Positions 22,477-23,008 of a DNA stretch of 24,492 bases are shown one piece after another; position 1 is the first letter of the stretch; every line of letters starts with the position of its first letter. The stretch covers positions 1 to 24,492 of the IMG/VR virus record IMGVR_UViG_3300025781_000071. One strand, given 5' to 3'. The notes under the pieces are model-generated. The model was given only the letters and a program-made list of their open reading frames with translations. It did not search any database and had not been told where the DNA came from. Origin of the DNA: a virus. The position numbers were made by a program, and so were the translations under genes.

Positions 22477-22983
22477 TTATGCGCCCAGCATTATATTTAG
22501 TGCCTTAAACGGGGTCTGTGTATAAAGAAACGGGGGTTGTGCATCTGCATTGGTTCGCACTGTGCCGTAAAACGACATGCCTGCGATTGGAGCAGTTGCA
22601 AATGTGATTGTGCTTCCCGAAATTTTGTAGCCAGAATTGAACAAATTGATTTCGGTTAAGTTTTGATAATCGTTGATGTATCGTGCCGGAAACACCGGAA
22701 TTTCACCTATAGCAATGTTCAGTTGCAAAATGCTGTTGGGTGCGTAGGGAGTGCCGTTTACACTCAGTGTAAATGAAGTGGTGGCACCATCAAATGTGTT
22801 GCTGATATCATCCAGTGGATAGGTATAGCCCGGTGTTTCGCCCGAGGGATAAGCAAAAGTGGTAGCAGTCAGTGTGCCGTTTGTGGGATTTCTAGTCCAA
22901 GAGTTACTGGTGCTACTGTAGACGTAACTGATTCCGTTGACTGTTGCCGTTGTGCCGTTTGCGGGATTTGCTGGGAAACTCAT
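22477..22983 (-). CDS. Fibre-type structural protein (168 aa)
   Basis: Starts MSFPANPANGTTATVNGISY followed by VYSSTSNSWTRNPTNG, the FPxNPxNG and W-x-R pattern common at the N-terminus of phage tail-fibre proteins. The rest has PLDDISNTFDGATTSFTLSV, then an IGEIPVFPARYIND strand and a hydrophobic end FKALNIMLGA. This LDDISxxFDGxxTxFxL module is one I associate with structural proteins of cyanophage-type T4-like phages. The ATG is at 22981-22983 with AAAGG 6 nt upstream, inside an inverted repeat, and a late box at 23001-23008. It is 13 bp from the next gene (the large structural protein), so the two probably share a late transcript. Likely role: short fibre or attachment-related subunit. Confidence 0.78.
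   Translation of the reverse strand: MSFPANPANGTTATVNGISYVYSSTSNSWTRNPTNGTLTATTFAYPSGETPGYTYPLDDISNTFDGATTSFTLSVNGTPYAPNSILQLNIAIGEIPVFPARYINDYQNLTEINLFNSGYKISGSTITFATAPIAGMSFYGTVRTNADAQPPFLYTQTPFKALNIMLGA
22494..22501 (-). promoter_or_regulatory. Possible late box ACTAAATA before the 1057-aa gene
   Basis: Reads ACTAAATA on the minus strand, in the last codons of the 168-aa gene, 30 nt before the ATG of the large structural gene. It is a weak match (6 of 8); the gene could equally be served by the upstream box. Confidence 0.35.
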
Positions 22984-23003
22984 AGTGTACCTTTATACAC
23001 TAT
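22982..23003 (-). promoter_or_regulatory. 8-bp inverted repeat enclosing the ribosome site of the 168-aa structural gene
   Basis: Perfect arms ATAGTGTA and TACACTAT with a 6-nt loop that reads TAAAGG on the minus strand, so the ribosome site is in the loop. One end includes the AT of the ATG, the other overlaps the late box. The layout is the same as at gp13. Confidence 0.78.
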
Positions 23004-23008
23004 TTATC
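23001..23008 (-). promoter_or_regulatory. Late promoter GATAAATA before the fibre-type gene
   Basis: Reads GATAAATA on the minus strand, 17 nt before the ATG and 12 bp after the stop of the membrane protein gene. Probable entry point for late transcription of the fibre region 16250-22983. Confidence 0.7.

Follow-up and report, generated by a model that had tools for sequence, protein, structure and literature searches.

This locus raises the question of why a late promoter box, a ribosome-binding site and a start codon should be packed into a single inverted repeat between a permease gene and a tail-fibre-like gene. Here, the window refers to the whole 24,492-base IMG/VR fragment that was analysed. 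The likely answer is that the hairpin at the 168-aa gene is a T4-type promoter-embedded translational switch, which probably silences this tail gene on read-through messages until its late promoter fires. The features concerned are the following:

22477..22983, minus strand: 168-aa gene, the putative target of regulation, with a weak likeness to tail-fibre families (phrog_18673, E 2.9e-7; no Pfam match)
22982..22989, minus strand: 3' arm TACACTAT, its last two bases being the AT of the start codon
22990..22995, minus strand: hairpin loop TAAAGG, containing the Shine-Dalgarno (SD) sequence AAAGG (22994-22990)
22995, minus strand: predicted late transcription start (+1), the sixth base after the box, from T4 geometry and the leaderless-class distance
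22996..23003, minus strand: 5' arm ATAGTGTA, made of the last three bases of the box (ATA) and a 5-nt spacer
23001..23008, minus strand: T4-type late promoter box GATAAATA, 17 nt upstream of the ATG of the 168-aa gene
23021..24073, minus strand: DUF401 membrane protein (permease), 350 aa, upstream and co-directional (PF04165, E 7.9e-9; phrog_14035, E 1e-69)
24075..24491, minus strand: 2OG-Fe(II) oxygenase, upstream and co-directional, with its 5' end beyond the window (PF13759; phrog_81)

Anatomy of the site and the proposed switch

On the minus strand, from 23008 to 22981, the window reads GATAAATA GTGTA TAAAGG TACACT ATG. The sequence-only reading had described 8-bp arms that enclose the AAAGG ribosome site and end in the late box and in the ATG, and this description is correct: the arms ATAGTGTA and TACACTAT (23003-22996 with 22989-22982, minus strand) pair perfectly over 8 bp around TAAAGG. 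A read-through RNA, taken from 20 nt before the box to 20 nt after the ATG, folds at -12.9 kcal/mol, against -0.5 for the RNA from the predicted late start. Box, arms, loop and this fold difference are properties of the sequence itself, as are the enrichment and the covariation in relatives described below. In the read-through fold the AU of the AUG is paired with a probability of 0.97-0.99, and the A residues of the SD are unpaired in the loop. The SD being mostly in the loop, with a low pairing probability, counts against the switch, and any block would consequently rest on the stem that contains the AUG and the spacer.

The late +1 would fall at 22995, leaving the 5' arm untranscribed in late RNA. 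This placement follows the T4 geometry, with the box about one helical turn from the start according to the available text of PMC2988020, and the 5-nt modal box-to-ATG distance of the leaderless class. Under the proposed mechanism, read-through RNA from the oxygenase and permease genes, presumably early genes, would carry both arms and fold into the hairpin, with the start codon and the SD-AUG spacer in the stem and the SD confined to a tight loop, which would block 30S initiation on the 168-aa gene in vivo. Once the late promoter fires, RNA polymerase would start about 6 nt after GATAAATA, inside the loop, and the late RNA, devoid of the 5' arm, would leave the SD free and allow translation of the 168-aa gene. 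The weakest step is how well a hairpin with the SD in its loop blocks initiation.

The sequence-only reading took the oxygenase and permease to be probably early. What bears on their timing is that the minus strand holds no ATAAATA box from 23008 to the window end, and neither ATAAATA nor CTAAATA occurs upstream of the permease start within the window; the promoter of the oxygenase-permease operon is outside it. In several relatives (L003, at 6068-6652; L004-L007, L021 and L027) the DUF401 permease gene is followed directly by a gene with a signal-peptide-like start, an arrangement that the window does not have; at a guess, the adjacent gene perhaps encodes an outer-membrane barrel.

Searches in viral contigs found no orthologues of the 168-aa protein, and tblastn of the protein on the collected loci of relatives gave weak matches to an N-terminal module only, with other leaders. 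A homologous junction was also sought downstream of DUF401 in 26 relatives, where different genes follow, so that none offers a homologous junction. As no orthologue of the 168-aa gene was found, there is no covariation to be had at the 22982-23003 stem, and the case rests on relatives.

Late boxes, chance pairing and gene orientation

Late boxes end in ATA and starts often read TATG, so that A+T-rich spacers might pair with leaders by chance and the hairpin might be a by-product of late-promoter sequence. ATA and TAT do supply three stem pairs, the arms are A+T-rich, and 36 of 20,000 dinucleotide shuffles of the 36-nt site keep a perfect stem of at least 8 bp, so that over a large number of boxes a few such sites should arise by chance. 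We nevertheless regard this explanation as unlikely. When sites were scanned for the exact geometry (arm from box end to ATG, at least 7 bp, ORF of at least 60 codons), 8 distinct sites were found at 776 ATAAATA boxes and 5 at 2983 boxes of four scrambled 7-mers (Fisher p 0.0015), that is, they are about 6 times commoner at late boxes, in loci that overlap in part, equally for late boxes and control words. Such a scan for boxes overlapping an inverted repeat at a start codon had been proposed by the sequence-only reading, and random occurrence is not what it reveals.

The box-to-ATG hairpins found elsewhere belong to a nucleotidyltransferase-like gene (G002, G003 and G004), an HNH-like gene (G002), a 495-aa gene (L093) and others, the first two labels reflecting our own recognition of sequence motifs. 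The nucleotidyltransferase-like leaders have the geometry of the window and comprise 6 distinct rows, in which 98.3% of cells are paired over 10 pairs (slid controls at most 72.9%) and 2 pairs are changed on both sides (reached in 14 of 500 shuffles). That changes are compensated in orthologous leaders with this geometry argues against a by-product. The HNH-like gene of G002 (L123 6762-7145, minus strand) combines a late box with a 9-bp hairpin that covers AGGA, like T4-type homing endonucleases; at this exact-geometry site the upstream neighbour is divergent, which counts against the switch. The leaders of a 460-aa LSLWKDG gene, considered as a further candidate, carry late boxes and no common hairpin was seen in them; its upstream gene is divergent in the window.

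A read-through switch requires an upstream gene in the same direction, and orientation was examined with a duplex score, the energy with which the leader pairs to the 40 nt preceding the inferred start; it was compared with re-paired permutations in G001-G004 and the window. Among co-directional late starts, 24/109 scored -10 or below against 7.2 +- 2.4 expected (0/5000 permutations), while divergent late starts gave 0/27 against 0.8, the two orientations differing with a Fisher p of 0.004. Re-paired leaders, whose composition is unchanged, still fall short, again at odds with a by-product. With ATAAATA boxes only, the counts were 16/80 against 4.5 for co-directional and 0/25 for divergent starts. 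Control starts without a late box showed no excess (31/330 against 28.9 and 8/98 against 7.5). The co-directional excess is smaller when each protein family contributes a single site (7.1 against 3.2, fraction 0.0067; 13 families have a member), which counts against the switch. Gene calls came from a simple longest-ORF script, and some starts or neighbours are possibly wrong.

These counts depend on cut-offs that were picked post hoc. The first duplex test covered 140 sites, including leaders of up to 50 nt and contig G011, whose sites duplicate those of G001, and gave 7/39 divergent starts, all with a box-to-ATG distance of at least 36 nt and several of them back-to-back late promoters. The set was then restricted to leaders of 12-35 nt, without G011 or any site that has an opposite box (140 to 109 to 105), and the test was repeated with and without each cut-off. 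The co-directional excess appeared in every version and the divergent one was never significant, the closest being 4 against 1.6 at -12, unfiltered (fraction 0.053).

Both window sites miss the -10 cut, with -8.5 at the 168-aa gene and -8.6 at the gp13 gene described below, which counts against the switch; they fall short because their hairpins are short. In GAP32 and PA5oct the excess at ATAAATA boxes is weaker, 7/35 against 3.7 (fraction 0.057), with 4/14 against 1.4 at CTAAATA (fraction 0.030). In T4 alone, the excess is not significant (3/16 against 2.3); like the weaker excess in GAP32 and PA5oct, this counts against the switch. As a positive control, the 28 box-start pairs of T4 were scored, and the co-directional starts at -10 or below were exactly I-TevII, 49, e, segB and I-TevI, all five of which are named in the accessible portions of PMC3014915 and PMC2988022. 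The score misses T4 soc (-3.6), which the exact-geometry scan finds; its layout resembles that of the window site, with 9 bp of stem between the box region and the ATG. Divergent back-to-back late promoters of T4 score low too, for the trivial reason that facing boxes are complementary.

As a separate observation, CTAAATA in G002-G003 (L108-L144) also acts like a late box, lying mostly 4-7 and 16-25 nt before starts, and its co-directional starts show a pairing excess (9/30 against 3.7).

The gp13 leaders and covariation

The sequence-only reading had reported a like device at gp13, and it is real. The features are:

10592..11503, minus strand: gp13-like head-tail adaptor (neck protein), 303 aa (phrog_211)
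11502..11526, minus strand: second copy of the device, an 11-bp hairpin ATACTGTATTC-GGA-GAATACAGTAT that ends in the gp13 ATG
11524..11531, minus strand: late box GATAAATA of gp13

Here the arms span 11526-11516 and 11512-11502, pairing over 11 bp around a GGA loop. The two window sites had been taken for two unrelated sequences, which they are not: ATAGTGTA and the gp13 arm ATACTGTA agree at 7 of 8 positions, and the one difference is matched by a compensating change in the partner arm.

Among the matches listed, 80 of 327 relatives yielded 46 distinct gp13 leaders, L095 and L106 being dropped as they came without leader sequence. Contigs carrying these relatives reach 374 kb, and among the matches listed the closest cultured phages are the jumbo phages Atu_ph07, XaC1, GAP32 and PA5oct; the relatives from IMG/VR we take to be freshwater phages. 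In most of the 46 leaders the late box is central in the hairpin, and ACTCCG, ATCCCG or GTTCTT, at the upstream gene's end or intergenic, pairs with the SD CGGAG, CGGGA or GGAAC. The read-through fold leaves none of the four SD bases unpaired in 36/46 leaders, and the late RNA folds at 0.0 kcal/mol in 42/46 and never below -0.8 in the remainder. Leaders L042, L066 and L071 show almost no SD pairing, which counts against the switch. The upstream anti-SD arm, which in relatives lies where the preceding gene ends, is missing from the window gp13 (11502-11560, minus strand), and a downstream box-to-ATG hairpin takes its place. This is a turnover of layout with the same logic as in the relatives.

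In a MAFFT alignment of the 46 leaders, 80.9% of cells are paired against 75.4 in shuffles, 33 cells carry double changes against 13.0, and covariation is 0.226 against 0.149 (0/500 shuffles in each case), with slid controls at 0.079 or below; counted by pairs instead, double changes are unremarkable (7 pairs against 6.0). In the L051 group this alignment sets some 3' arms off by one column, so that the covariation counts come out too low. Covariation analysis had been put forward by the sequence-only reading as a check, and compensatory change is found both at these 46 leaders and at the 6 of the same geometry as the window. Together with an enrichment seen only where the upstream gene is co-directional, this supports its suggestion of selection for RNA structure over the late promoter and start codon.

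In the cultured jumbo phages PA5oct, GAP32 and XaC1 (L178, L180 and L181), SD-pairing arms were also observed around late boxes in gp13 and tail sheath leaders. At GAP32 gp13 the box CCTAAATA is itself the 5' arm and AGGGG the 3' arm, with a matching variant in XaC1.

The inverted repeat could instead serve as a DNA operator, in which a repressor or autoregulator of the phage would sit on the dyad ATASTGTA-N-TACASTAT and block access to the late promoter, much as I-TevI blocks its own. The 7/8 arm positions common to the two window sites fit this idea, as does the autorepression of T4 I-TevI, whose site overlaps its late promoter (PMC2988022). We consider an operator improbable, however, for arm sequences differ between genes in relatives (ATAGTAATAG, ATAATGTAG, ATACTAG), and the pairing excess is confined to co-directional starts, a limit that an operator would not need. 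Moreover, one-sided steps from C-G to U-G, seen in 10 and 8 cells of the gp13 leaders, preserve the RNA pair and break the DNA dyad, and therefore fit RNA rather than a DNA dyad. A 5'-end or attenuation element, for instance a stem that protects the mRNA or a terminator at the end of the permease operon, is hardly credible even with the hairpin about 20 nt past the permease stop, since GAGTTTCCC rather than a U-run follows the stem, so that the G+C-rich stem and U-run of an intrinsic terminator are lacking, the late RNA would have no 5' arm and hence no 5' stem, and an Rfam search gave no match.

Putative leaderless late starts

A second arrangement of box and start codon is frequent in G001-G004 and the window, where 70 late boxes are followed by an in-frame ATG at a distance of 4-7 nt; the distance is exactly 5 nt for 38 of them, and 57 are co-directional. 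In G001-G004, ATAAATA occurs 51 times in the 4-7 nt interval, where five scrambled words occur 2-16 times, and 0 times in the 12-15 nt interval. In cultured phages, boxes 4-7 nt before an ATG number 0/28 in T4, 0/36 in GAP32 and 2/35 in PA5oct. Judging from this spacing, these boxes would imply leaderless late mRNAs that begin with the start codon. In the window, late boxes 4-5 nt before an in-frame ATG are located as follows:

2465-2480, minus strand
5023-5038, minus strand
9168-9183, plus strand
16997-17011, minus strand

In G002 and G004, orthologues of the 165-aa gene likewise seem to be leaderless.

Implications

The proposed switch and the putative leaderless starts tentatively suggest a wider reading, which we offer as a possibility still short of an even chance: in this freshwater group of T4-related jumbo phages the late promoter may be a general translation licence, such that late genes reachable by read-through are translatable only from RNA of their own late promoter. 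Either of two 5'-end devices might provide this, an anti-SD arm inside the promoter that is lost from late RNA, or an ATG at +1 that would give a leaderless mRNA with the box in place of any SD, and from one relative to the next a given gene would exchange one arm layout for another (upstream of the box, box-centred or box-to-ATG), as gp13 does.

The T4 switch, in the accessible text of PMC3014915 and PMC2988022, concerns a handful of genes (lysozyme, soc, gene 49, homing endonucleases). Here, switch-like leaders recur across jumbo phages on core structural genes, with covariation at gp13 and similar pairings at the neck or sheath leaders of GAP32, XaC1 and PA5oct. In the open-licence PMC literature we found no report of the switch at gp13 or sheath genes, nor of leaderless T4-type late mRNAs. 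The switch is testable in cultured phages, and our findings give a start-site rule for the annotation of late genes, including those whose ATG appears as the first base of the mRNA.

Comparison with known systems

The T4-type late promoter TATAAATA is an 8-bp box that precedes the start by roughly one helical turn (PMC2988020); in the window, by comparison, the end of the box is itself part of an RNA stem. ATAAATA is reported before structural genes of the jumbo phages CBB and GAP32 in the accessible part of PMC5259590.

The translational switch is known, from what is available of the T4 reviews PMC3014915 and PMC2988022, for e, soc, 49, I-TevI, I-TevII and segB. The window site resembles the e, soc and 49 leaders as presented in the former, with the late box at the 5' arm, the SD or AUG in the hairpin and a late RNA that, at the window site, would lack the arm. 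It differs from them in that its SD is chiefly in the loop, that the genes controlled would be those of a tail-fibre-like protein and the neck protein gp13, and that the device is known here from sequence alone. The I-TevI, I-TevII and segB leaders of T4 and mobE of Aeh1, as described in PMC2988022, belong to late genes inside early or middle units, whose ribosome-binding site is hidden on the long RNA and freed by their own late promoter. Those T4 and Aeh1 cases are mobile homing endonucleases, some with an extra autorepression site, whereas the window gene is structural.
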